64,000 nucleotides of DNA from positions 1,319,501 through 1,383,500 of the forward strand of contig NZ_CP132543.1 of NCBI RefSeq assembly GCF_030845195.1, given 5' to 3'. Both the position numbers and the translations under genes were made by a program. Origin of the DNA: Sanyastnella coralliicola. Lineage in GTDB: Bacteria > Bacteroidota > Bacteroidia > Flavobacteriales_D > Sanyastnellaceae. The notes under the pieces were generated by a model. That model saw nothing but the letters and a program-made list of their open reading frames with translations, was not told where the DNA came from and searched no databases. This document shows, one piece after another, positions 40,274 to 54,973 of the stretch (position 1 is the stretch's first letter; each line of letters opens with the position of its first letter).

Positions 40274-43200
40274 TTATTGTTTCAACAGGGCCACACGATA
40301 CGTTTGGTCACCATTGGTTAGGTGTAGATGGTATGCTCCGGTAGCTAGTTGGGAAACGTCAACCTGCTGATTCCCGCTGCCGCTCATCTGCGTCGTCAAG
40401 ACGATCTGACCTTGCGTATTGTAGATAGTTAGCTGTGCGTTTTGCACTGCTTCTGGAAGTTCGATAGTCACTGCTTCGTTGACCGGGTTTGGCCAAGCGT
40501 TGAGTGCGTTTACGCGTACCTCGTAAACTCCTACAGGCTGGCGATCGATGGTTACGAAGTTCTCTGAGATTTGGAAACAATCTCCAGTTGATGTGATGTC
40601 TGCGATGTTGTTCTCTACTTCTGCTTCAAGCGTTCCGTAGTAAGAGAATCCGTATACGTAGCAGATACCTGCTGGTGCTCCTTCGAAGTCAGCTGTGTTG
40701 CCGTCTAGGATGTCGATGATTTCTCCAGAAGGATCAGTAACGATGAATACGAAGTTTTCACCTTCCGATTCCGCGCTAGCGAATTCAAATTCATCAGCAT
40801 CACCATCACCAACAATCACGGTAACCATAGTTTCACCATCTGAAGTACTTACCGTACCTCCTGCGATTCCATTACGGATCACCGTTACTGGGTTAGAAAG
40901 TGAGTAACAACCGTCAAGGTCATTCGCGTTCATACCAACTTCAGCTCCTGTGAGTCCATCTTCGAAGCTCAAGTGCCAGATGAGGCAAGTACCAGGACCA
41001 GCTCCGTCAAGATCGAATGGACCACCCGCAGGAAGTGCAAGGATATTGCCTTCGTCGTCAGTGATCACCCACTGAGAGTTTTGTCCTTCGTTACCTTCGA
41101 GTGTTACGTCGATTGGATCAGCGATTCCGTCACCAGCACAGATTTCGAAAGTGTTGTCTTCATTGTCTGTAGTCAATACACCACCGTTCACTCCGTTTCG
41201 GATGACAGTTACTGGGTTAGAAAGCGCGTGACAACCTTCGAGGTCATTTGCATTCATACCAACTTCAGCACCAATCAGTCCATCTTCGAAGCTCAAGTGC
41301 CAGATGAGGCAAGTACCGCCACCAGCGCCTTCAAGATCGAATGGAGGTCCTGCAGGAAGCGCAAGGATATTTGCAGCGTCATCAGTGATGACCCATGCAG
41401 AGTTCGTTCCGATAGCACCAGAAAGTGTTACATCGATTGGATCAGCTACGCCGTCACCGGCACAGATCTCAAATGTGTTGTCTTCATTTTCAGTAGTCAA
41501 CGTACCACCGTCAACAATACAATCACAATCTTCTCCAACTAAACGTGTTACAGTGATTGGGTTAGAAAGAGAGTAACAACCTTCAAGGTCATTCGCGTTC
41601 ATTCCAACTTCTGCACCTTCAAGTCCGTCTTCAAAGCTCAAGTGCCAGATCAGGCAGATTCCTTCTCCTGCTCCGTCCAAATCAAACGGTCCACCTTCAG
41701 GAAGACCAAGGATGTTTCCAAGATCGTCAGTGATTACCCATGCAGAATTCGATCCTTCAGCACCTTCCAACGTTACGTTGATTGGGTCTGGGTTGTCATC
41801 CAATGCACAGATTGTTGTTGGGTCTTCTGTAGAGATAGTTCCTCCAGCTACACCGTTACGGATGACCGTTACAGGGTTCGATAGAGAGTAGCATCCTTCA
41901 AGGTCGTTTGCGTTCATTCCAACTTCTGCACCTTCGAGTCCATCTTCGAAGCTCAAGTGCCAGATGAGGCAAGTACCGCCACCAGCTCCTTCGAGATCGA
42001 ATGGACCAGCTCCTTCAGGAAGCGCGAGAATGTTACCGAGGTCATCAGTAATAACGTACTGAGAGTTTTGTCCTTCAGCACCTTCAAGCGTTACATCGAT
42101 TGGATCAGCTACACCGTCGCCAGCGCAGATTTCGAAGGTGTTATCGTCATTGATAGTAGAGAGGGTACCACCAGCAACACCATTACGTGTTACCGTGATC
42201 GCGTTAGAAAGAGAGTAACAACCTTCGAGGTCATTCGCGTTCATTCCAACTTCAGCTCCTACGAGTCCGTCTTCAAAGCTCAAGTGCCAGATTAGACAAA
42301 CACCACCTCCAGCGCCTTCAAGGTTGAAAGGACTACCTGCAGGAAGCGCAAGGATGTTTCCTTGATCATCAGTGATTACCCATGCAGAGTTTGACCCTGA
42401 CGCTCCTTCCAATGTCACATTGATCGGATCAGCTACACCGTCACCAGCGCAGATCTCTGTTGGATCTTCTGTAGAGATTGTTCCTCCTTCAGCTTCACAG
42501 TCACACTGGTCACCTACAAGGCGTGTTACGGTGATCGGGTTAGAAAGAGAGTAACAACCTTCAAGGTCATTCGCGTTCATTCCAACTTCAGCGCCTTCAA
42601 GTCCATCTTCGAAGCTCAAGTGCCAGATCAAACAAACACCTTCACCAGCGCCATCAAAGTCGAAAGGACCGTTCGCCGGAAGATCAAGGATATTTCCGAG
42701 ATCGTCAGTGATTACCCATGCGAAGTTGCTTCCTTCAGCACCTTCTAGGGTTACGTTAATTGGATCTGCTTCTCCATCAAGGGCACAGATTGTTGTCTCG
42801 TCTTCTGTGGAGATGGTTCCACCAGCAACACCGTTACGGATTACCGTTACAGGGTTAGAAAGAGAGTAACAACCTTCAAGATCGTTTGCGTTCATTCCAA
42901 CTTCTGCACCTTCGAGTCCGTCTTCAAAGCTCAAGTGCCAGATGAGGCAAGTACCGCCACCAGCACCTTCGAGGTCAAATGGACCAGCTCCTTCAGGAAG
43001 TGCAAGGATGTTCCCGAGATCATCAGTAATAACGTACTGAGAGTTTTGTCCTTCAGCACCTTCAAGCGTTACTTCGATTGGATCAGCTACACCGTCACCA
43101 GCGCAGATTTCGAATGTGTTGTCATCATTGATTGTAGAAAGAGTACCACCAGCAACACCATTACGTGTCACTGTGATTGCGTTTGATAGAGAGAAACATC

Positions 43201-43987
43201 CTTCGAGGTCATTCGCATTCATTCCCACTTCAGCTCCAATGAGTCCGTCTTCAAAGCTCAAGTGCCAGATCAGACAAACACCACCGCCAGCGCCTTCAAG
43301 GTCGAATGGACTACCTTCAGGTAGTGCTAGGATATTCGCTTGATCATCTGTGATTACCCATGCAGAGTTCGAACCAGAAGCGCCTTCCAATGTCACATTA
43401 ATCGGATCAGCTTCACCATCGCCAGCGCAAATCTCTGTTGGATCATCCGTAGAGATTGTTCCACCTTCAGCGTCACATCCACCGAGATTCTCAGCTCCGA
43501 AAGTGTCATCACCAAGGAACCAATCGCCTGAAGTGTCGCCTTCACCGTCCCACTGCACAGATTCTCCAGCATTAACCGTTGGGATAAAGTCTCCCATCGA
43601 CCAGATTGCAGCACCGATAGCAACGTTTGCGCGCACGTGGCCTGAGCTTCCCCATTCTACGTAGTCAATGATTGCACCGGAGTTAGAGTATTGAGGGAGG
43701 ATGTAAAGTCCGAGTTCGTCATCTGAATCACCCATCTCGTGACCCGAGACAACGAGGATCTCTCCTGGACCTAGGTTGAGGTCTCCAGAGACGATTGTCA
43801 TGTCTTCAATTTCAGTGTAGATTGGGAAAGAGCAGAGGAAGTAGTTACCTACAGGCACTTCCATCATTCCCAGGTTTTTGATTTCCACCTGGTCCAAGTC
43901 AGGTTGGAATTCGTTGATAACGATCTGTGCATTTGCACCGATAGCAAACAGCATTAAGATCGCTGAGAGTAAAGTTCTGATTCGCAT
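40274..43987 (-). CDS. T9SS cargo protein with lamin-tail-like domain and tandem repeats
   Basis: 1237 residues. A signal peptide (LFAIGANAQ) is followed by a lamin-tail-like domain (IVINEFQPDLDQVEIKN to about residue 170). Then come eight near-identical units of about 95-110 residues with conserved ICAGDGVADPI, WVITDD and CLIWHLSFEDG and GMNANDLEGC, plus a ninth degenerate unit. The order is ABC, ABC, then two more, which points to duplication of a three-unit block. The C-terminus (VRVNALNAWPNPVNEAVTI to QTYRVALLKQ) is a type A sorting tail. Repeat cysteines could pair within units. It is probably a long surface fibre; the ligand is unknown. The ninth unit carries a copy of the dispersed 14-mer. 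Confidence 0.9.
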   Translation of the reverse strand: MRIRTLLSAILMLFAIGANAQIVINEFQPDLDQVEIKNLGMMEVPVGNYFLCSFPIYTEIEDMTIVSGDLNLGPGEILVVSGHEMGDSDDELGLYILPQYSNSGAIIDYVEWGSSGHVRANVAIGAAIWSMGDFIPTVNAGESVQWDGEGDTSGDWFLGDDTFGAENLGGCDAEGGTISTDDPTEICAGDGEADPINVTLEGASGSNSAWVITDDQANILALPEGSPFDLEGAGGGVCLIWHLSFEDGLIGAEVGMNANDLEGCFSLSNAITVTRNGVAGGTLSTINDDNTFEICAGDGVADPIEVTLEGAEGQNSQYVITDDLGNILALPEGAGPFDLEGAGGGTCLIWHLSFEDGLEGAEVGMNANDLEGCYSLSNPVTVIRNGVAGGTISTEDETTICALDGEADPINVTLEGAEGSNFAWVITDDLGNILDLPANGPFDFDGAGEGVCLIWHLSFEDGLEGAEVGMNANDLEGCYSLSNPITVTRLVGDQCDCEAEGGTISTEDPTEICAGDGVADPINVTLEGASGSNSAWVITDDQGNILALPAGSPFNLEGAGGGVCLIWHLSFEDGLVGAEVGMNANDLEGCYSLSNAITVTRNGVAGGTLSTINDDNTFEICAGDGVADPIDVTLEGAEGQNSQYVITDDLGNILALPEGAGPFDLEGAGGGTCLIWHLSFEDGLEGAEVGMNANDLEGCYSLSNPVTVIRNGVAGGTISTEDPTTICALDDNPDPINVTLEGAEGSNSAWVITDDLGNILGLPEGGPFDLDGAGEGICLIWHLSFEDGLEGAEVGMNANDLEGCYSLSNPITVTRLVGEDCDCIVDGGTLTTENEDNTFEICAGDGVADPIDVTLSGAIGTNSAWVITDDAANILALPAGPPFDLEGAGGGTCLIWHLSFEDGLIGAEVGMNANDLEGCHALSNPVTVIRNGVNGGVLTTDNEDNTFEICAGDGIADPIDVTLEGNEGQNSQWVITDDEGNILALPAGGPFDLDGAGPGTCLIWHLSFEDGLTGAEVGMNANDLDGCYSLSNPVTVIRNGIAGGTVSTSDGETMVTVIVGDGDADEFEFASAESEGENFVFIVTDPSGEIIDILDGNTADFEGAPAGICYVYGFSYYGTLEAEVENNIADITSTGDCFQISENFVTIDRQPVGVYEVRVNALNAWPNPVNEAVTIELPEAVQNAQLTIYNTQGQIVLTTQMSGSGNQQVDVSQLATGAYHLHLTNGDQTYRVALLKQ
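40769..40782 (-). repeat. dispersed 14-mer TCGCTAGCGCGGAA
   Basis: In the degenerate ninth unit of the repeat protein, read in frame as Ala-Ser-Ala-Glu (context FEFASAESEG). The other units have no such segment at the equivalent place. Confidence 0.85.
40830..43470 (-). repeat. large DNA tandem repeats of about 300 bp inside the cargo gene
   Basis: Eight units of about 290-330 bp are highly similar at DNA level; for example the minus-strand words for GMNANDLEGC recur in each. Two blocks of three units (about 900 bp each) are nearly identical. Recombination could change their number. Confidence 0.9.
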
Positions 43988-45585: not shown

Positions 45586-46941
45586 ATGGCGAAAGCGATT
45601 CGTATACGTAAGGGTAGTGATATCAGACTCGTAGGAGTAGCTGATAAAACCCTTGAAAATCCTGCACGGACTGACCTATATGCGGTCAAGCCGACTGACT
45701 TCCACGGTCTTACACCGAAACTCGTTGCGCGAGAAGGTGACCGCGTGAAAGCAGGTGATGTCCTCTTTTTTGATAAGTACAATGACTCGATCAAGTACAA
45801 CGCTCCCGTTAGTGGAACTGTTGACGAGGTCGTACGTGGTGAAAAACGCCGCATTCTAGAAGTACGTATCAAAGCTGATGCCCAAAATGAATTTAAAGAC
45901 TTCGGAGCAAAGTCTGCGAGCTCAATGAGCGCTGCTGATCTTCGTGCTCACTTGTTGGAAGGAGGCTGCTGGCCGCTTATCCAACAGCGTCCGTTCGCTA
46001 TTGTTGCGAATCCGGAGAGCACACCAAAGTCGATCTTCATTGCTGGTTTCGACAGTTCACCACTAGCACCTGACGGTGACTTCGTGATGGAAGGAGAAGC
46101 TGACAACTTCAAAGAAGGTCTGGCTGCTTTGAAAGTTCTTGCTGATGGAAAACCAGTTCACCTGGGTGTTCGTCCTGACAGCAAAGCCTTCAACGGCGTT
46201 GATGCACAGGTTCACCAAGTGAGTGGTCCACACCCAGCTGGAAACCCAGGGGTTCAGATCCATCACATTGATCCGATTAACAAAGGTGAAGTCGTTTGGA
46301 CGATTGCAGCGCAGGATGTAGCGAACATCGGAAGATTCCTTCGCACTGGTAAGTTTGATATGCAGCGTGTTGTTGCATTGACTGGTGCTCAAGTGAATCA
46401 ACCGAAGTACTACCGAGTTACTGTAGGAGCCAACGTCTCATCTATGCTTAACGGCCAAATCAAGGATGATAATACTCGTGTCATCAGCGGAAACGTTTTG
46501 ACAGGTGATCACATCACTACCGATGGCTTCCTTGGTTACTACCATCACCAGATCACGGCTATTCCTGAAGGGAAGGAGCCAAAGTTCTTGTTGACTGATG
46601 GTTGGTTGAGCCCAGGATTGAAGAAGTTCTCTCTTTCACACGCTTACCCAACGTGGTTGATGCCAAAGAGCAAACGATTCAACTTGGATACCAATTCAAA
46701 TGGTGAAGATCGCGCCTTCGTTGTTACCGGACAGTACGAGAAGGTATTCCCATTTGACATCTATCCAGTTCAATTGGTGAAGTCGATCATCGTCAACGAT
46801 ATCGATTCGATGGAAAAACTAGGGATCTACGAAGTAGCTCCCGAGGATTTCGCGCTTTGTGAATACGCTTGTACCTCAAAAATTGAAGTTCAAGACATTG
46901 TTCGCGAAGGGTTGGATACCATCATGAAAGAATTTAGTTAA
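45586..46941 (+). CDS. nqrA: Na+-translocating NADH:quinone oxidoreductase subunit A
   Basis: 451 residues, the usual NqrA length. NqrA is the soluble subunit of the Na+ pump that takes part in quinone binding. The barrel-sandwich start (FFDKYNDSIKYNAPVSGTVDEV) and GLTPKLVAREGDRVKAGDVL are typical, as are HPAGNPGVQIHHIDPI and the C-terminal CEYACTSKIEVQDIVREGL. It is the first gene of nqrABCDEF, with 20 bases to nqrB. Confidence 0.97.
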   Translation: MAKAIRIRKGSDIRLVGVADKTLENPARTDLYAVKPTDFHGLTPKLVAREGDRVKAGDVLFFDKYNDSIKYNAPVSGTVDEVVRGEKRRILEVRIKADAQNEFKDFGAKSASSMSAADLRAHLLEGGCWPLIQQRPFAIVANPESTPKSIFIAGFDSSPLAPDGDFVMEGEADNFKEGLAALKVLADGKPVHLGVRPDSKAFNGVDAQVHQVSGPHPAGNPGVQIHHIDPINKGEVVWTIAAQDVANIGRFLRTGKFDMQRVVALTGAQVNQPKYYRVTVGANVSSMLNGQIKDDNTRVISGNVLTGDHITTDGFLGYYHHQITAIPEGKEPKFLLTDGWLSPGLKKFSLSHAYPTWLMPKSKRFNLDTNSNGEDRAFVVTGQYEKVFPFDIYPVQLVKSIIVNDIDSMEKLGIYEVAPEDFALCEYACTSKIEVQDIVREGLDTIMKEFS

Positions 46942-46961: not shown

Positions 46962-48212
46962 GTGAAAGCACTTCATAATTTTCTAGAGAAGAAGGTAAAG
47001 CCGAATTTCGTTGAAGGAGGGAAGCTCTCGCGCTTCTGGGTGGTTTATGATTCACTCGAAACCTTCGCATTCACGCCAGGTCACGTTACTAAGAAAGGAG
47101 CTCACATCCGTGATAGCATCGACCTGAAGCGTACCATGTTCTTGGTGATCGTTGCCATGGTTCCAGCACTGTTGTTTGGAATGTGGAATGTTGGTCACCA
47201 ATACTACCTATCAATTGGAGAAATCACTACAGCTGACCCATACAGCGCAATGCTGTGGGAGAAATTCCAAGTAGGACTGGTGAAAACACTACCGTTGATC
47301 GTTGTATCATACGGTGTCGGACTCGGAATCGAGTTCATATTTGCAGGACTTAGAAAGCACTCAATCAATGAAGGTTTCCTTGTATCAGGGATGCTTATTC
47401 CATTAATTATGCCAGTGGATGTACCATTATGGATGGTAGCGGTTGCTACTGCCTTCGCGGTAATCATTGGTAAAGAGGTGTTTGGTGGTACTGGAATGAA
47501 CATCTTGAACGTCGCACTTACGGCGCGTGCATTCTTGTTCTTTGCTTACCCGAAACAAATGTCAGGTGAGATTTGGATCCACGACGTAGCGGCTTCTGCA
47601 ACTAACGGAATGTTGGCTGACGGTTACACAGGTGCGACAGCGCTTGGTCACCTAGCGAACACTGTTGGTAAGCCAGTCGATGGCGAAGTCGCAGGAAGTG
47701 TCATGGGTATGTTCGGAGACGCGGGCATGTACTCGTTCATGGATTCATTCCTAGGATTGATTCCTGGATGTATCGGTGAAACAAGTGCACTTGCCATCCT
47801 TATCGGAGCTGGAATCTTGATCTGGACAGGTATTGGTAGCTGGAGAATCATGTTGAGCTTCCTTATCGGAGGTTTGGCCATGGGAGCCATCTTCAATGCA
47901 TTCGGAGCGAACGCTTACATGACGCTACCAGCAGTTCACCAAATCGTCATTGGTGGATTCATGTTCGGTATGGTCTTCATGGCAACTGACCCGGTAACAG
48001 CGGCACAAACGAACACAGGTAAACTCATCTACGGATTCTTTGGAGGTTTCTTCTCGATTATGATCCGTGTATTCAACCCTGCTTATCCAGAAGGGGTGAT
48101 GATGGCTATCCTGTTTATGAACGTAATGGCTCCTATGATTGACCACTACGTAATTCAAGCGAACATCAAACGTCGAATGAAACGAACTGCACTCGCTACG
48201 GCGGCTGCGTAA
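46962..48212 (+). CDS. nqrB: Na+-NQR subunit B (covalent FMN, membrane)
   Basis: 416 residues with about nine to ten membrane segments. FMN is attached by a phosphoester bond to the last Thr of the TGAT motif (T226 in DGYTGATALGH), the same place as in other NqrB proteins. GTG is the start codon. NqrB carries FMN and riboflavin, and forms part of the Na+ channel. It is followed by nqrC after 11 bases. Confidence 0.97.
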   Translation: MKALHNFLEKKVKPNFVEGGKLSRFWVVYDSLETFAFTPGHVTKKGAHIRDSIDLKRTMFLVIVAMVPALLFGMWNVGHQYYLSIGEITTADPYSAMLWEKFQVGLVKTLPLIVVSYGVGLGIEFIFAGLRKHSINEGFLVSGMLIPLIMPVDVPLWMVAVATAFAVIIGKEVFGGTGMNILNVALTARAFLFFAYPKQMSGEIWIHDVAASATNGMLADGYTGATALGHLANTVGKPVDGEVAGSVMGMFGDAGMYSFMDSFLGLIPGCIGETSALAILIGAGILIWTGIGSWRIMLSFLIGGLAMGAIFNAFGANAYMTLPAVHQIVIGGFMFGMVFMATDPVTAAQTNTGKLIYGFFGGFFSIMIRVFNPAYPEGVMMAILFMNVMAPMIDHYVIQANIKRRMKRTALATAAA

Positions 48213-48223
48213 TACCTAAAGCA

Positions 48224-49030
48224 ATGGCAGTAAATAAAAATAGCAACGGGTATACATTCTTCTTTGCGATCGCCATGGTAGTGGTGGTTGGAGCGATCTT
48301 GGCGATTACTTCGGTGTCACTCAAAGAGCGTCAGCAACAGAATGATGCAGATAAGAAGCGTATGGACATCCTGGGTGCAATCAAGGTAGAATCAACGCGT
48401 CAAAATGCGGCAGACTTGTTCTCACAGTTCGTGGTAGAACGCATTTCTGTTGATTACTCTGGAAACTTGGTGGAGCAGGCATCAGGGAAGATTGACCCGA
48501 ATGACAAACAAGATCCATTCAATATTGACGTAAAGAAAGATTACAGGTCTTCGATCAAGGGAATCGTAAAAACTTCAGGAAAAAATCCGGAAGAACTTGA
48601 GAATAGACTTGCTAACGCAGATGTAAACTACCCAGTTTTCAAGTGTGTTAAAAATGACACTACGCTCTACGTATGCCCAATGGTCGGAACTGGTCTTTGG
48701 GGTCCAATTTGGGGTTATGTTGCTCTTGAAGAAGATTTTCAAACAATCTACGGAGCTAAGTTTGATCACAAAACAGAAACTCCAGGTCTTGGGGCTGAAA
48801 TAAAGGAGGACTTCTTCACGGTAAAATTTGAAGGGAAAGAATTGAACCTTGAAGATCCGAAGACAATGTTCTCTGTCCTGAAAGGGGGAGCAGTTACGAA
48901 CGAACACAGTGTAGACGGAATCACGGGAGGTACCATCACTTCGAAAGGGGTGGATGAAATGCTTAACCGTACACTTCCGGTTTACGTGAAATACTTTACT
49001 AACGCTAACGATCAACGCGCAGAACGATGA
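48224..49030 (+). CDS. nqrC: Na+-NQR subunit C (covalent FMN)
   Basis: 268 residues: one N-terminal membrane segment (about 9-30) and a periplasmic FMN domain. The FMN site reads DGITGGTITSKGV, with T237 as attachment Thr; the motif is TGGT instead of the more common SGAT. ApbE encoded downstream would attach the FMN. The stop overlaps the nqrD start by 4 bases (ATGA). Confidence 0.96.
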   Translation: MAVNKNSNGYTFFFAIAMVVVVGAILAITSVSLKERQQQNDADKKRMDILGAIKVESTRQNAADLFSQFVVERISVDYSGNLVEQASGKIDPNDKQDPFNIDVKKDYRSSIKGIVKTSGKNPEELENRLANADVNYPVFKCVKNDTTLYVCPMVGTGLWGPIWGYVALEEDFQTIYGAKFDHKTETPGLGAEIKEDFFTVKFEGKELNLEDPKTMFSVLKGGAVTNEHSVDGITGGTITSKGVDEMLNRTLPVYVKYFTNANDQRAER

Positions 49031-49737
49031 GCACTGAAGTAAAAGAAGTAGAAAAAGCGGTTGAGAAGAAGTCTGAGCCACTATTCTCGAAAAAGAATAG
49101 GAAGCTGCTTTCAGACCCTCTGAATGATTCCAACCCAATTACTGTTCAGGTACTAGGTATCTGCTCAGCACTCGCGATTACAGTACAGCTTCAACAGGCT
49201 GTGATTATGTCACTCTCAGTATTGTTCGTAATGATTGGAGGTAACGTAATCGTATCGTTGCTTCGTAACGCGATTCCTGATCGAATCCGAATCATCGTGC
49301 AGCTTGTTGTTATTGCAGCACTTGTAATTATCGTAAATGAAGTTCTGAAAGCCTTCCTACCAGACATCTCTGAGAAGCTGTCGGTATTCGTAGGTCTTAT
49401 CATCACGAACTGCATCATCATGGGACGTCTAGAGGCATTTGCTCTAGGTAACAAGCCAGGACCATCATTCCTTGATGCGATTGGTAACGCCATGGGTTAC
49501 GCTTGGATTCTTTTGGCCGTATCTATCGTGCGTGAGATCTTCGGTTCCGGAGCGATTTCATTCCCAGGGATGGGTCAGGTGAAATTCTTTGACCCAGATT
49601 GGTCAGGATGGATGGCTAATGGAGGATTCTATGAAAACAACAACTTGATGATCCTTCCTCCAATGGCCCTTGTGGTTGTGGGTGTGATCATCTGGATCCA
49701 GCGTGCACGTAACACTAAATTGATCGAAGAAAACTAA
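49027..49737 (+). CDS. nqrD: Na+-NQR subunit D
   Basis: 236 residues with six membrane segments. The conserved half-membrane cysteine motif of the NqrD/RnfE family lies in [18 protein letters not shown], one of the ligands for the iron centre shared with NqrE. The N-terminus has a charged extension (about 30 residues). The start overlaps nqrC by 4 bases, so translation is coupled. Confidence 0.97.
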
Positions 49738-49745
49738 GAACAGCC

Positions 49746-50360
49746 ATGGAATACTTTAGCATATTCGTAAAAGGTATCTTTATTGAGAACATGATCTTCG
49801 CCTACTTCTTGGGGATGTGTTCTTATCTAGCGGTATCAAAGACAGTTAAGACGGCGGTTGGTCTTGGTTTCGCCGTGATCTTCGTACTCGGAATCACTGT
49901 ACCGATCAACTACCTACTAGAAAACTACGTACTGGCAGAAGGGGCCCTCACCTGGATCTCTCCTGAGTACGCAACAGTAGACCTCAGCTTCCTCAGCTTT
50001 ATCATGTTCATCGCCGTAATTGCGTCGATGGTACAGTTGGTTGAGATGATCGTTGAGAAGTTCGCTCCAGCACTTTACGGAGCACTTGGAATCTTCCTAC
50101 CACTTATCGCAGTAAACTGTTCGATCCTTGGTGGTGCACTCTTCATGCAAGAGCGCCAGTACCCATCGATCGGGGAGGCAACTGTATTCGGACTTGGTTC
50201 TGGAGTTGGATGGTGGCTAGCGATTGTTGCGATTGCAGCCATCCGTGAGAAGATCCGCTACTCTCATGTACCTGCTCCGCTTCGCGGACTAGGAATTACA
50301 TTCATCATTACTGGTTTGATGGGAATGGCGTTCATGAGCTTTATGGGAATTGAAATTTAA
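49746..50360 (+). CDS. nqrE: Na+-NQR subunit E
   Basis: 204 residues, six membrane segments. Conserved family motifs are [15 protein letters not shown] and the matching [15 protein letters not shown], whose cysteines supply the second half of the intramembrane iron site with NqrD. Nine bases follow nqrD. Confidence 0.97.
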
Positions 50361-50381: not shown

Positions 50382-51677
50382 ATGACAACAACAGTCATTC
50401 TAACCATTGTATTCTTCCTAGCAGTAATCCTGCTACTTGTATCATTGCTTCTTTTCGCAAAGGCGAAGCTTTCGCCAAGCGGTAAGATCAAGATCGAGAT
50501 CAACGGAGAAAAAACGATCGAGGTAGACGGAGGTGGATCACTTCTTACAACCCTCGGTAATGCGGGAATCTTCCTACCATCAGCATGTGGTGGAGGTGGT
50601 ACTTGTGTTCAGTGTACTTGTCAAGTGCACGAAGGTGGAGGTGCTATCCTTCCTACAGAAGAACCACACTTCTCACGTAAAGAGATCGCTTCGGATTGGC
50701 GTCTCGGTTGCCAGGTGAAGGTGAAGGAAGATATGAAGATCCAAATCCCTGAAGAGGTATTTGGTATCAAGAAGTGGGAGTGTGAAGTAGTTTCAAACTA
50801 CAACGTAGCTTCATTCATTAAGGAGTTTGTTGTTCGCCTTCCTGAAGGTGAATCACTCGACTTTGAAGCTGGTGGTTACATCCAGATTGATGTACCGAAA
50901 ATCACAGTGAACTTCAAAGACATCGACATCACAGCTCACCCTGAGCAGCACGGAAACCCTGAAGAGTTCCGCACGGAGTGGGATAAGTTCGGCCTATGGG
51001 ACTTGAAGATGGTTAACGACGAAGACATCGTACGTGCCTACTCGATGGCTAACCACCCAGCTGAAGGAAACATCGTCATGTTGAACATTCGTGTAGCAAC
51101 TCCACCTTGGGATCGCGCACGTAACGCATGGATGCAAGTGAATCCAGGTGTTTGTTCTTCATACGTGTTCGGATGTAAGCCAGGAGATAAAGTAACAGTT
51201 TCAGGTCCTTACGGAGAATTCTTCATCAAGGAAACTGACGCTGAGATGGTATACATCGGGGGTGGTGCAGGTATGGCGCCAATGCGTTCACACCTTTTCC
51301 ACTTGTTCCACACGTTGAAGACTGGACGTAAAGTGACATTCTACTACGGTGGTCGTTCACGTCGTGAGCTTTTCTACATCGAAGACTTCCGCAAGATCGA
51401 ACGTGAGTTCCCGAACTTTAAGTTCCACCTTGTATTGTCTGAGCCACTTCCAGAAGATAACTGGAATGAGAAGAAGAGCGTTGACGATGAAGGAGACGGG
51501 TTCTTAGGTTTCGTTCACAATGCGGTGATCGAGCACCACTTGAAAGATCACGATGCTCCTGAAGATATTGAATTCTACTTCTGTGGTCCTCCATTGATGA
51601 ACCAGGCTGTCCTCAAAATGTGCGACGACTGGGGAGTTCCACCAGAAAATGTTTCCTTTGATGACTTCGGAGGATAA
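50382..51677 (+). CDS. nqrF: Na+-NQR subunit F (NADH-oxidising, 2Fe-2S and FAD)
   Basis: 431 residues. An N-terminal membrane anchor (about 5-26) is followed by a plant-type 2Fe-2S domain with C69, C75, C78 and C110. The FAD domain has the RAYS motif (RAYSMANHP) and the NADH site has [12 protein letters not shown]. The C-terminus ([13 protein letters not shown]) is typical. It takes hydride from NADH and starts electron flow in the pump. A terminator follows at once, so apbE has its own promoter. Confidence 0.97.
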
Positions 51678-51731: not shown

Positions 51732-52817
51732 ATGAAGAGAGTCGTATTCATTTTCATCGCAGCTGTTGTTCTTGCTGCCTGTGGTACATCAGAACCACCG
51801 GTTCAGGAAACACCACCCTCGACCTTCCAGAACATGGTCATTACTGGCGAGGCGCAAGGAACCACTTATACCATCCGATATATTGAGGATACGGTCGACT
51901 ACAAAACGCAAGTGGATTCAATCCTGTTGCGCATTGACCAGGACCTCTCGACTTGGGTTCCAAGTTCTTTGATCAATCAGATCAATGCCTTTGATCGCAC
52001 TGATACCGTATTTGCGTTCTATGATAGCACGAAGTACTTCTCAGTGATGTTTGATGTATCTCGTGAGATTTGGAACAAAACAGACGGCGCTTTTGATCCC
52101 ACGGTATATCCCTTGGTTGACCTTTGGGGATTCGGATTAAGCAATAGAGGAGACGTCAATGATGAGGCTGTCATGGAGGCACAGTCGAAAGTCGGAATGA
52201 TGGAGGCCAATATTGATATGATCGAATTGGAGGAGAACTACCTCTACCAGACGACTTGGATTCGAAAAGGACAAGAAGGCGTGCGCCTTGACTTCAATGC
52301 GATTGCCCAAGGGTTTAGTGTTGACTTGATCACGGAGTTCTTGGAAGAGCAAGGAGTGAATAATTATATGGTGGAGCTCGGAGGTGAAGTGAGCTGCAAA
52401 GGAGTGAATGCAGAGGGGAATGCTTGGCGCATTGCTATTGATAAGCCTAAGGATGACGGAGAACGAGAGTTCCAAGCGATTGTGAATGTTCGAAACAAAG
52501 CAGTTGCGACTAGCGGGAACTACCGCAAATTCTACGAAGTGGATGGCGTGCGTTATTCCCACACGATTGACCCTCGCACTGGTTATCCGGTAACACATAG
52601 TCTGCTTTCGGCTACGGTTATGGCTTCTGACTGCGCAACCGCGGATGCTTATGCCACATCTTTCATGGTGATGGGGAAGGATGACGCCATCGCATTTATT
52701 GAAGATGGTATGGTCTCCGGACTAGAAGTTTACCTGATCTACGATGAAGGTGGAGTGTATAAGACGTGGATGACTGCAGGTATGAACGAAGTCATTGAAG
52801 AATTGAATGATTTGTGA
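51732..52817 (+). CDS. apbE: FAD:protein FMN transferase, lipoprotein
   Basis: 361 residues with lipobox VVLAACG. ApbE attaches FMN to Thr residues of NqrB and NqrC, using FAD as donor. Typical motifs: GTTYTIRYIED, DGAFDPTVYPLVDLWGFG, LDFNAIAQGFSVDLI, and SHTIDPRTGYPVTHSLLSATV with the Mg2+/FAD-binding acidic residues. VMASDCATADAYATSFMVMG closes the domain. Its place right after nqrF matches its role in maturing the pump. Confidence 0.96.
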   Translation: MKRVVFIFIAAVVLAACGTSEPPVQETPPSTFQNMVITGEAQGTTYTIRYIEDTVDYKTQVDSILLRIDQDLSTWVPSSLINQINAFDRTDTVFAFYDSTKYFSVMFDVSREIWNKTDGAFDPTVYPLVDLWGFGLSNRGDVNDEAVMEAQSKVGMMEANIDMIELEENYLYQTTWIRKGQEGVRLDFNAIAQGFSVDLITEFLEEQGVNNYMVELGGEVSCKGVNAEGNAWRIAIDKPKDDGEREFQAIVNVRNKAVATSGNYRKFYEVDGVRYSHTIDPRTGYPVTHSLLSATVMASDCATADAYATSFMVMGKDDAIAFIEDGMVSGLEVYLIYDEGGVYKTWMTAGMNEVIEELNDL

Positions 52818-52839: not shown

Positions 52840-52847
52840 TATCTTTG
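52840..52847 (+). promoter_or_regulatory. TATCTTTG box 4 bases before the small Cys-rich gene
   Basis: A perfect TAnnTTTG match, 4 bases before the ATG at 52852; implies a leaderless mRNA separate from apbE. Confidence 0.55.
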
Positions 52848-52851
52848 CACT

Positions 52852-53052
52852 ATGAGTACAGTATTATTAGCTATCGGATTGTTGGCCTTGGCTTTCGCAG
52901 GCATCGCCATCAAGATCCTTGTTAAGAAAGACGGAGAGTTTGCCGGTACTTGTGCCAGCAATAATCCATACCTCAAAGAAGAGGGTGGTACATGTTCTGT
53001 TTGTGGTGCTCGTCCACAGGAGCAGTGCCAGCGTGAGTCTGTAGAGGGATAA
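52852..53052 (+). CDS. small membrane protein with four cysteines, candidate NqrM-like maturation factor
   Basis: 66 residues: one membrane helix (about 3-24), a basic turn (KILVKKDGEF), and a short tail with four cysteines (C34, C48, C51, C59; GTC, then CSVCG and QEQC). In Vibrio and other bacteria NqrM (DUF539) is a small membrane protein with a helix, a basic turn and a Cys tail (GSCGG type), needed for NQR maturation, probably for the iron site in NqrD/NqrE. The layout and position after nqrF-apbE fit this role. The cysteine spacing differs from DUF539, so this is inference; it could also be another small zinc-ribbon-like protein. Confidence 0.6.
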   Translation: MSTVLLAIGLLALAFAGIAIKILVKKDGEFAGTCASNNPYLKEEGGTCSVCGARPQEQCQRESVEG

Positions 53053-54159
53053 TTAGAAGATCCTATATCCGATCCCAAATTCTGGGTAATCGGCTTTTGC
53101 CCAATGAGTTTTGAGCCCAATCATGCATTGCCAATCTTCGGTGATGTCGTAACGCAATGAGAAGCGGTGATAGAATGTGCCGTTTCCTTTGTAGCGCGTA
53201 AAAGTGTAAGCGCCCATCATCAAATCGAATCTTAATCTTCCGAAGTGCTGGTTGTAACTAAGTGCTACGCCATGTTGCACCATGTCGAGCACATCAGACT
53301 GACCTTCTTCACCGAGTAGCTGAGCGGCAGCCATGTTGTAAAAGAGATCACTCCGAATACTCCAACCCCGTTTCCAACTCGGTCTGAATTCATAGGCATA
53401 GCTGAAGGTATGCACTGAAAATTTTGGTCCGCCCGGAGGTAGATTCTCTTTGACACCAGTTAAAAGCATCGCATAATGTGCCCTGCCTCTTGGTAGTACT
53501 GAAGTCCAAATGCCTTCTGGTAAGGGTACAATAGGATTAATGTGGTATACCGCCTGCAGGCCAACAGTCAAGTTGTTAATGCCAAGATTGGGTAAGGTGT
53601 AAGCACCATTAGACAAGTGTGTCATTCTCAGGCTAGCGCCGATATGCCAGTGATCTGATAGGTAGTAATCGGATTGAACTCCCAAGATCACGCTTGCATT
53701 TAGCGGTGAGCCGAGTGCGATCGCCTTTGTATTGTCTTCAAGGTCCCAGGTTGTATCTGTGAAGCCGATGCCTCCTGCAGCTAATAGGAAATGCTCGAAG
53801 CGTTCTCCTCTTCGGATGGGTAGTAAGGTATAGAGTGACAGTGCTGCTTGTCTTCCCAGTTCAGCTCTGTTACCTAAGTCGGCCGCGTACAGCTCCACTC
53901 CCCAGCGAGGTCTGAAGTAGTTGTAGTGCCAACGTTTGGAGCCGTCCACTATCCATTCCGCCGAGGCGGTGATGGCCACTGAATTTCCTGTGACTAGAGG
54001 TTTGAGATCATCTCTATGAGGTACTACCAATCCGTAGTTTCCGCCTATTCTAAAGCTGTTGGGTGCTTGCGCTAGCGCGGAAACGGACAAGACTACCAGA
54101 AGAACAAGAAGCGAAGCGTTCCGCCCGATAGGGCGAAAAAATGAAGAGAAGAAATACAC
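53053..54159 (-). CDS. PagL-like acyloxyacyl hydrolase / outer-membrane protein
   Basis: 368 residues if the GTG at 54159 is the start, which gives a signal peptide ending in SVSALAQAP. ATG codons exist further upstream (54210, 54252) but overlap the divergent mazG start. The mature protein is a beta-barrel-type sequence. THLSNGAYTLPNLG contains the HxSN motif of PagL lipid A 3-O-deacylases, the catalytic His and Ser; the catalytic Glu was not located. The C-terminal strand (EFGIGYRIF) ends in Phe as in outer-membrane barrels. Bacteroidota relatives are usually called acyloxyacyl hydrolase. The signal peptide region holds a 14-mer copy in the antisense frame (54070-54082). Confidence 0.65.
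   Translation of the reverse strand: MYFFSSFFRPIGRNASLLVLLVVLSVSALAQAPNSFRIGGNYGLVVPHRDDLKPLVTGNSVAITASAEWIVDGSKRWHYNYFRPRWGVELYAADLGNRAELGRQAALSLYTLLPIRRGERFEHFLLAAGGIGFTDTTWDLEDNTKAIALGSPLNASVILGVQSDYYLSDHWHIGASLRMTHLSNGAYTLPNLGINNLTVGLQAVYHINPIVPLPEGIWTSVLPRGRAHYAMLLTGVKENLPPGGPKFSVHTFSYAYEFRPSWKRGWSIRSDLFYNMAAAQLLGEEGQSDVLDMVQHGVALSYNQHFGRLRFDLMMGAYTFTRYKGNGTFYHRFSLRYDITEDWQCMIGLKTHWAKADYPEFGIGYRIF
54070..54082 (+). repeat. dispersed 14-mer, 13 of 14 bases, antisense to the gene
   Basis: CGCTAGCGCGGAA on the plus strand, preceded by G instead of T. In the minus-strand gene it reads Ser-Ala-Leu-Ala in the signal peptide, so here the word is not in the Ala-Ser-Ala-Glu frame. Confidence 0.65.
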
Positions 54160-54187
54160 TTTGCTATCGTGTGCCACAGGAAGAAGG

Positions 54188-54195
54188 TATCTTTG
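54188..54195 (+). promoter_or_regulatory. TATCTTTG box 4 bases before mazG
   Basis: A perfect match to TAnnTTTG followed by AAGT and the ATG at 54200; implies a leaderless mRNA. Confidence 0.55.
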
Positions 54196-54199
54196 AAGT

Positions 54200-54973
54200 A
54201 TGAACAGCATGCAAGATAAACTAAAGGCTTTTGAACGCCTGCTCATCATCATGGATGAGCTGCGTGAACAGTGTCCGTGGGATATGAAACAGACGATGGA
54301 TAGTCTGCGTCATTTGACGATCGAGGAGGTGTATGAATTGACCGATGCGATCATGGATAAAGACATGGAAGAGGTGAAGAAGGAGCTGGGAGATATCATG
54401 CTTCATATGGTCTTTTATGCTCGAATTGCCAGTGAAACGCAGCAGTTTGACATTGCTGATAGCCTAAATTCTATTTGCGATAAGATCATTGATCGTCACC
54501 CGCATATTTACGGTGATGTTGACGTAGCGGATGAAGAAGAAGTCAAGCAGAACTGGGAAAAGCTGAAGTTGAAAGAAGGGAAGAAGTCGGTACTTCAAGG
54601 GGTACCAAAGTCGCTTCCTAGTTTGGTGAAGGCAGTTCGTGTGCAAGACAAAGCACGTGGCGTTGGGTTTGATTGGGATCATGAAGACCAAGTGTGGGAG
54701 AAAGTGCAGGAAGAGCTTCAGGAGTTTAAGGCCGAAGCTGATGCTGGCAGTGATAAAGTAGAAGAGGAATTTGGGGATTTGATGTTCAGTCTCATCAATT
54801 TCGCGCGTTTCAAGGGAATCAATCCAGACGATGCCTTAGAACGTACCAACAAGAAGTTTATCAAGCGTTTCCAATTCTTAGAAGTAGAGAGTGCCAAGGA
54901 TGGCAAAGTGCTAGGGGAGATGACCTTAGAGGAAATGGACGGCTATTGGGAACGTGCCAAAACAGAGGCCTAA
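54200..54973 (+). CDS. mazG: nucleoside triphosphate pyrophosphohydrolase
   Basis: 257 residues with two MazG domains. The first has REQCPWDMKQTMDSLRHLTIEEVYEL and KKELGDIMLH, the metal-binding EExxE and ExxD motifs. The second (about 150-225) has EELQEFKAEA and EEEFGDLMFSLINFAR. The enzyme cleaves (d)NTPs to monophosphates and is known to clear aberrant nucleotides and, in some bacteria, to influence ppGpp. The DUF2807 gene begins at the base after its stop (TAA then TTG), so the two are co-transcribed. Confidence 0.95.
   Translation: MNSMQDKLKAFERLLIIMDELREQCPWDMKQTMDSLRHLTIEEVYELTDAIMDKDMEEVKKELGDIMLHMVFYARIASETQQFDIADSLNSICDKIIDRHPHIYGDVDVADEEEVKQNWEKLKLKEGKKSVLQGVPKSLPSLVKAVRVQDKARGVGFDWDHEDQVWEKVQEELQEFKAEADAGSDKVEEEFGDLMFSLINFARFKGINPDDALERTNKKFIKRFQFLEVESAKDGKVLGEMTLEEMDGYWERAKTEA

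Follow-up and report, generated by a model that had tools for sequence, protein, structure and literature searches.

A 66-residue, single-span membrane protein encoded behind the nqrABCDEF-apbE genes of Sanyastnella coralliicola is probably the form that NqrM, the NQR maturation factor, takes in Bacteroidota, with tail cysteines that would bind iron or an iron-sulfur precursor and deliver it to NqrD/NqrE. The preliminary description had proposed such a Bacteroidota counterpart, and this reading is supported by co-occurrence of the protein family with nqrF, by the absence of PF04400 (DUF539) proteins and by profile-level homology to NqrM.

NqrM is the NQR maturation factor in V. cholerae, where it is linked to the [2Fe-2S] centre, according to passages of PMC12174285, and the literature passages that describe NqrM concern Vibrio. 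PMC12174285 and PMC11576283 each name both NqrM and a word beginning with Bacteroid-, and the passages of the former give NqrM for V. cholerae. Bacteroidota NQR has been studied in Bacteroides fragilis and Prevotella bryantii (passages of PMC7002350 and PMC8516057); the terms 'ApbE' and 'maturation' are absent from the texts of both papers, and 'NqrM' from that of PMC8516057. Standard family libraries name no NQR maturation factor in the branch of Bacteroidota to which the window belongs, the window being the whole 64,000-nucleotide stretch of DNA analysed. Its nqr region contains the following features.

45586-46941, + strand: nqrA (TIGR01936, 491 bits; cut-off 321)
46962-48212, + strand: nqrB (TIGR01937, 481 bits; cut-off 350)
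48224-49030, + strand: nqrC (TIGR01938, 180.5 bits; cut-off 144)
49027-49737, + strand: nqrD (TIGR cut-off exceeded), with cysteines in LGIC and ITNC
49746-50360, + strand: nqrE (TIGR cut-off exceeded), with cysteines in LGMC and AVNC
50382-51677, + strand: nqrF (TIGR01941, 604 bits; cut-off 295)
51732-52817, + strand: apbE, FMN transferase lipoprotein (PF02424, 265 bits)
52840-52847, + strand: promoter-like box TATCTTTG, matching TAnnTTTG, 4 nt ahead of the start codon of the following ORF
52852-53052, + strand: proposed type I counterpart of NqrM, a membrane protein of 66 aa with a single span, comprising helix, K25-K26, FxGTCAS containing C34, CSVCG containing C48 and C51, and C59

The four cysteines of NqrD and NqrE are presumably the intramembrane iron-centre ligands, as in Vibrio NQR. 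The flavin-attachment stretch of NqrC (48224-49030, +) departs from the SGAT-type motif and reads DGITGGTITS; NqrB has DGYTGAT. On the 3' side of the ORF lie a gene resembling PagL/outer-membrane barrels (53053-54252, -) and mazG (54200-54973, +). Elsewhere in the window, a 1237-aa secreted-looking protein (40274-43987, -) carries several near-identical repeats (CLIWHLSFEDGL...GAEVGMNANDLEGCYSLSNP), noticed by eye in the ORF listing.

The ORF comprises 66 codons and starts 34 nt past apbE, and its cysteine codons begin at 52951 (C34), 52993 (C48), 53002 (C51) and 53026 (C59). An AlphaFold model places a helix at about residues 2-25 and is confident in the helix only (whole-model mean pLDDT 64.5, compared with means of 89 and 88 over residues 1-20); the basic residues are K21, K25 and K26. 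Reading of the ORF, the modelled helix and the TIGR and PF02424 matches upstream thus bear out the layout first described, a 66-aa protein behind nqrABCDEF-apbE with an N-terminal helix, a basic turn and four cysteines. Homologues are present in 40 of 59 near relatives; identity is 100% in one, 60-85% in 37 and 40-45% in two. In the alignment of near members (A1), which has 37 rows because four (near-)duplicates were removed from the 41 near genomes with the gene, C34, C48, C51, C59, G17, K21, G28, S36 and G52 are invariant in all 37. Since so many relatives carry homologues with invariant cysteines, the ORF is a real gene. C34 is also invariant in all 23 rows of an alignment of diverse members, and the Gly-Thr ahead of it varies in a few. 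Among the best 80 of 584 confirmed stretches (hereafter the 80 named loci), the pattern C-x13-C-x2-C-x7/x8-C was found at every one; 74 have exactly four cysteines and six have one more upstream. Record titles place these loci in Flavobacteriales, Crocinitomicaceae, Chitinophagales and Balneolaceae, among others.

The Bacteroidota -7 promoter box, TAnnTTTG, occurs in the 30 nt ahead of 97 of 144 non-redundant members chosen by the GxFxGTC pattern, compared with 107 of 1453 control ORFs of at least 200 aa. The box at 52840-52847 suggests that the ORF may have its own, near-leaderless transcript.

Occurrence of the family was compared with that of nqrF (marker TIGR01941) in 60 near genomes and in 395 genomes of the phylum, each set including the S. 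coralliicola genome. In the near set, 41 of 43 genomes with nqrF carry the family and none of the 17 without it does (n = 60). G019 (99% complete) and G047 (78%) have nqrF but not the family, and four weak rows, all from genomes that lack nqrF, were dropped (G018, G028, G032 and G055; E 0.026 to 0.62). In the phylum set, nqrF is present in 69 of 395 genomes; at E<1e-3 the family was found in 53 of these 69 and in none of the other 326 (Fisher P 8e-52, uncorrected for relatedness). Full scoring added G295, bringing the count to 54 of 69; the search scored at most 15 candidates per genome, so that absences may be missed presences, as in that case. Another phylum match, in G281 (E 0.0019), was rejected as a 129-aa frame that has no leading helix. 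G224 and G449 (family f49) are counted among the 69 despite a partial match; because the match is limited to roughly the final two thirds of the model and lies within an open frame of 779 aa, both probably have no NQR. The pattern holds within a single genus (g45), where the family is present in all three genomes with nqrF (G141, G211, G346) and absent from the five listed without it (G080, G084, G114, G125, G199).

Up to E 0.01, the sole match among the 326 genomes without nqrF is a truncated copy of 33 codons in G451 (E 0.0023; locus L262, C1:945400-946800), which stops directly past the first tail cysteine. It is flanked by genes resembling those beside other members in family f22, presumably pepD and skp/ompH, as in f22 and f23, and is consistent with decay following NQR loss. 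The preliminary description had held that the family should be confined to genomes with nqr, and apart from this copy no member was seen outside them in either set.

It had likewise expected the same genomes to encode no true DUF539 protein. Indeed, PF04400 gave no match over its cut-off (gathering score 22 bits) in any of the 60 near or 395 phylum genomes; within the order of G404, which is taken to be Bacteroidales, this search covered G404 and G287 only, both part of the 395 set. As a control, a Vibrio-type NqrM scored 80 bits. Sub-threshold hits in G044, G053, G340 and G433 were rejected as looking like chance matches: each overlaps a longer ORF read in a different frame or on the other strand, and none resembles a helix followed by a cysteine tail. 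Neither the 66-aa protein nor 23 selected members matched PF04400, and Pfam and NCBIfam as a whole returned nothing above cut-off for the protein, with weak matches only for it and the 23 relatives. No relative was found in the plasmid collection, and a PDB sequence search gave one match (E 0.083). The small single-span layout is shared with FixS/CcoS and with FeoB-associated cysteine-rich small membrane proteins, which appeared only as sub-threshold Pfam matches. Because the PF04400 model was tried and not reached, we leave the protein out of PF04400; it is a homologue that falls outside the boundary of that family and very probably works like NqrM.

For comparison, ten NqrM proteins (three gamma- and seven alphaproteobacterial) were taken from 22 plasmid-collection records with NqrM-like sequence. 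Profiles were built from near members (A1), from diverse members (A3) and with members from the order of G404 included (A6). In HMM searches, A3 placed all ten NqrM above 1230 decoys, 615 natural and 615 synthetic (best 27.5 versus 11.2 bits), and A6 placed eight. The reverse direction was weaker: with the NqrM profile, 5 of 23 and 4 of 20 members of the family outscored all decoys. Comparison with NqrM by hhalign gave probabilities of 95.4% (A3), 91.4% (A1) and 95.6% (A6). When both halves of NqrM were shuffled, the observed score was reached in 0 of 300 (A3) and 0 of 120 (A6) trials; with the tail alone shuffled, it was reached in 14 of 300 and 0 of 120, respectively. Since the A3 helix part alone scores 93% and the tail alone 0.4%, the A3 signal stems mostly from the helix plus GxC. 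All ten NqrM have GSCGG soon after the helix, and the family has GxC in the same place. We read the family as a true, if remote, NqrM homologue missed by Pfam, a reading that rests on these profile comparisons.

The layout proposed at the outset is consistent with this. The ORF protein resembles NqrM of Gamma- and Alphaproteobacteria in size, in a single N-terminal helix with a basic residue, in a short cysteine tail with G[ST]C soon after the helix and three further cysteines, and in having nqr and apbE nearby. It differs in having TCAS where NqrM has SCGG and in its x13-CxxC-x7 spacing; the family is also often located away from nqr and is unmatched by PF04400. The cysteine spacing had been described as different from that of NqrM. 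This is correct in that the spacing is unlike either proteobacterial form, C-x11-CxC-x3-C in the three gammaproteobacterial and C-x11-CxxC-x15-C in the seven alphaproteobacterial proteins; however, CxxC also occurs in the latter, and spacing varies within NqrM itself. As these two NqrM forms differ, and so do the forms seen in G353 and in members from the order of G404, cysteine spacing varies in both NqrM and the family. In V. harveyi NqrM, Cys33 is reportedly the essential cysteine and the others are of less importance; NqrM is said to have been called a proteobacterial factor by the authors of that study. Cys33 aligns with the invariant C34 of the ORF protein.

The gene lies within 6 kb of nqrF in 19 of the 40 relatives, 6 times co-directional and 13 times convergent. 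Of the other 21, 19 have it on a different contig, where draft assemblies and contig ends may hide some links, and two farther away on the same contig (8 kb from nqrF in G042 and 308 kb in the one-contig genome G038). Because more than half of the relatives have no copy near nqrF, linkage is not the cause of the co-occurrence. The position behind apbE, which the preliminary description had stressed, does not generalize either: with 6 of 19 linked relatives co-directional, operon placement is not conserved. Within the 80 named loci (best 80 of 584; many cut by contig ends), NqrF was seen in 28, an ApbE-like ORF in 44, MazG in 36 and a PagL-like gene in 33. The mazG and PagL-like neighbours were also seen at loci that have no nqr in the fetched stretch.

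The near-exclusive co-occurrence with nqrF and the single helix would fit equally well if the protein stayed bound to the finished NQR as a small supernumerary subunit or as a stabiliser, with cysteines holding a structural metal. We consider this unlikely, given the remote homology to NqrM, whose role in V. cholerae is in maturation (passages of PMC12174285), and given that an own promoter-like box and loose linkage are less usual for a subunit.

Further evidence came from a tree of NqrF (42 rows). Nine enzymes of family f28 group with the three from proteobacteria and are separated from the remaining Bacteroidota enzymes (support 100/100), and two Balneolaceae enzymes fall inside a six-member set with Flavobacteriales (100/99). 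The Balneolaceae loci, L134 and L155, carry the type I factor as well as NqrF, which is probably due to joint horizontal transfer. Factor type thus follows the NqrF clade, as Balneolaceae NqrF inside Flavobacteriales NqrF comes with the same type I factor. This result bears on the idea of a membrane protein that works in a different pathway, such as metal sensing or sodium physiology, and correlates with an NQR life style. The recurrent mazG and PagL-like neighbours (36 and 33 of the best 80 of 584 loci) would suit that idea, but presence and absence switch with nqrF inside single families and one genus, and together with the agreement of factor type with the NqrF tree and the NqrM homology this makes it very improbable. 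The least probable reading is that the protein serves ApbE, aiding flavin transfer or anchoring the enzyme: the ORF adjoins apbE in the window and ApbE-like ORFs outnumber NqrF at the named loci (44 versus 28 of the best 80 of 584), but family presence agrees with nqrF in 58 of 60 near genomes, and passages of PMC12174285 connect its homologue NqrM with the [2Fe-2S] centre. ApbE (PF02424) itself, the NQR accessory gene next to the ORF, differs in being an enzyme for FMN transfer with an unrelated sequence.

The type I family is missing from 15 of the 69 phylum genomes with nqrF, 12 of which belong to f28. All 12 f28 genomes with nqrF encode a different small protein, with a transmembrane helix followed by CCGGGxC (type III, profile A4), 1.3 to 2.9 kb from nqrF. 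Examples with CCGGG[HNS]C are found at L190-L195, L198, L200 and L201 (for instance L192, 8184-8393, +). Outside f28, the 395 genomes gave only weak hits in G280, G311 and G353 (E 0.006 to 0.01), which were dropped. By eye, the gene lies directly behind an apbE-like ORF in eight of nine fetched f28 loci; at L201, no apbE-like ORF is listed between nqrF and the CCGGGxC protein. The one member scanned had no Pfam match. Like type I, the protein consists of a helix and then a cysteine tail, but its hhalign probability against type I (64%) is no better than that of shuffles. Against NqrM it is borderline (hhalign 88-91%), with 11 of 120 tail shuffles as good and none above every decoy. On these comparisons it is a candidate for a second NQR factor, possibly one unrelated to the first. 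Of the 69 genomes with nqrF, 66 have one or the other type, leaving G325 and the two doubtful f49 genomes.

Divergent forms of the family itself were also found. In f22 and f23, the sole family member of four genomes with nqrF has His at the position of C34 and keeps a tail cysteine near C48. Such relatives in f22/f23 and the order of G404 (L185-L188, L210-L224, L225-L244) share FPxTxxGxNKxxRKxGIxC, with His or another residue at the key cysteine; those of f22/f23 adjoin genes resembling pepD and skp/ompH. A search of 60 genomes from the order of G404 found the family, taken in the wide sense, in 44 of 48 with nqrF and in 2 of 12 without it (G461, 91% complete, and G462, 61%); of the profiles used, A5 and A6 were partly built from the genomes searched. 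By a rough pattern, 17 of the 48 have a tail of the Cys34 type, 27 only other forms and four none; His, Glu, Ser, Arg and other residues replace Cys34, and the members in G461 and G462 are also forms that lack it. The tails in this order read GGSC...CGCG...C or TC...CSC...C, and that of G353 (f17) reads CGCGPEGC. Two different forms stand side by side at four fetched loci (L224, L233, L234, L244), and some tandems include the Cys type. Because 27 of 48 genomes with nqrF show only forms that lack it, the indispensability of Cys34 is strained here. The match between nqrF and the family is therefore clean in the lineage of the window and blurred in the order of G404. The view of this family as the Bacteroidota counterpart is well supported, with one correction here: type I, present in 54 of 69 genomes with nqrF, is not the sole candidate factor, given the CCGGGxC protein in f28 and the forms lacking Cys34 in the order of G404. 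We raise tentatively that NQR needs a small membrane-anchored helper so strictly that at least two unrelated proteins took this role, one the NqrM lineage (the proteobacterial, type I and His or other forms) and the other the independently evolved CCGGGxC protein of f28, each tied to its own NQR clade.

For the proposed maturation factor encoded in the window, we envisage anchoring in the inner membrane through its N-terminal helix; by the positive-inside rule, the KK pair suggests a cytoplasmic cysteine tail. C34 of the G-T-C motif, together with C48, C51 and C59, would bind iron or an iron-sulfur precursor, and the tail would pass it on to the cysteines that lie between NqrD and NqrE. ApbE would meanwhile attach FMN to NqrB and NqrC. 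Delivery to NqrD/NqrE is proposed because of the alignment of Cys33 with C34 and the four kept cysteines of the two subunits. The protein would then be required for a working NQR.

A named factor would account for the formation of the iron centre in Bacteroidota NQR, a sodium pump of many members of the phylum. It could help heterologous production of the enzyme, and it would show how tightly factor and enzyme are tied. If at least two unrelated helpers do exist, the factor would belong to the NQR module and travel with it.
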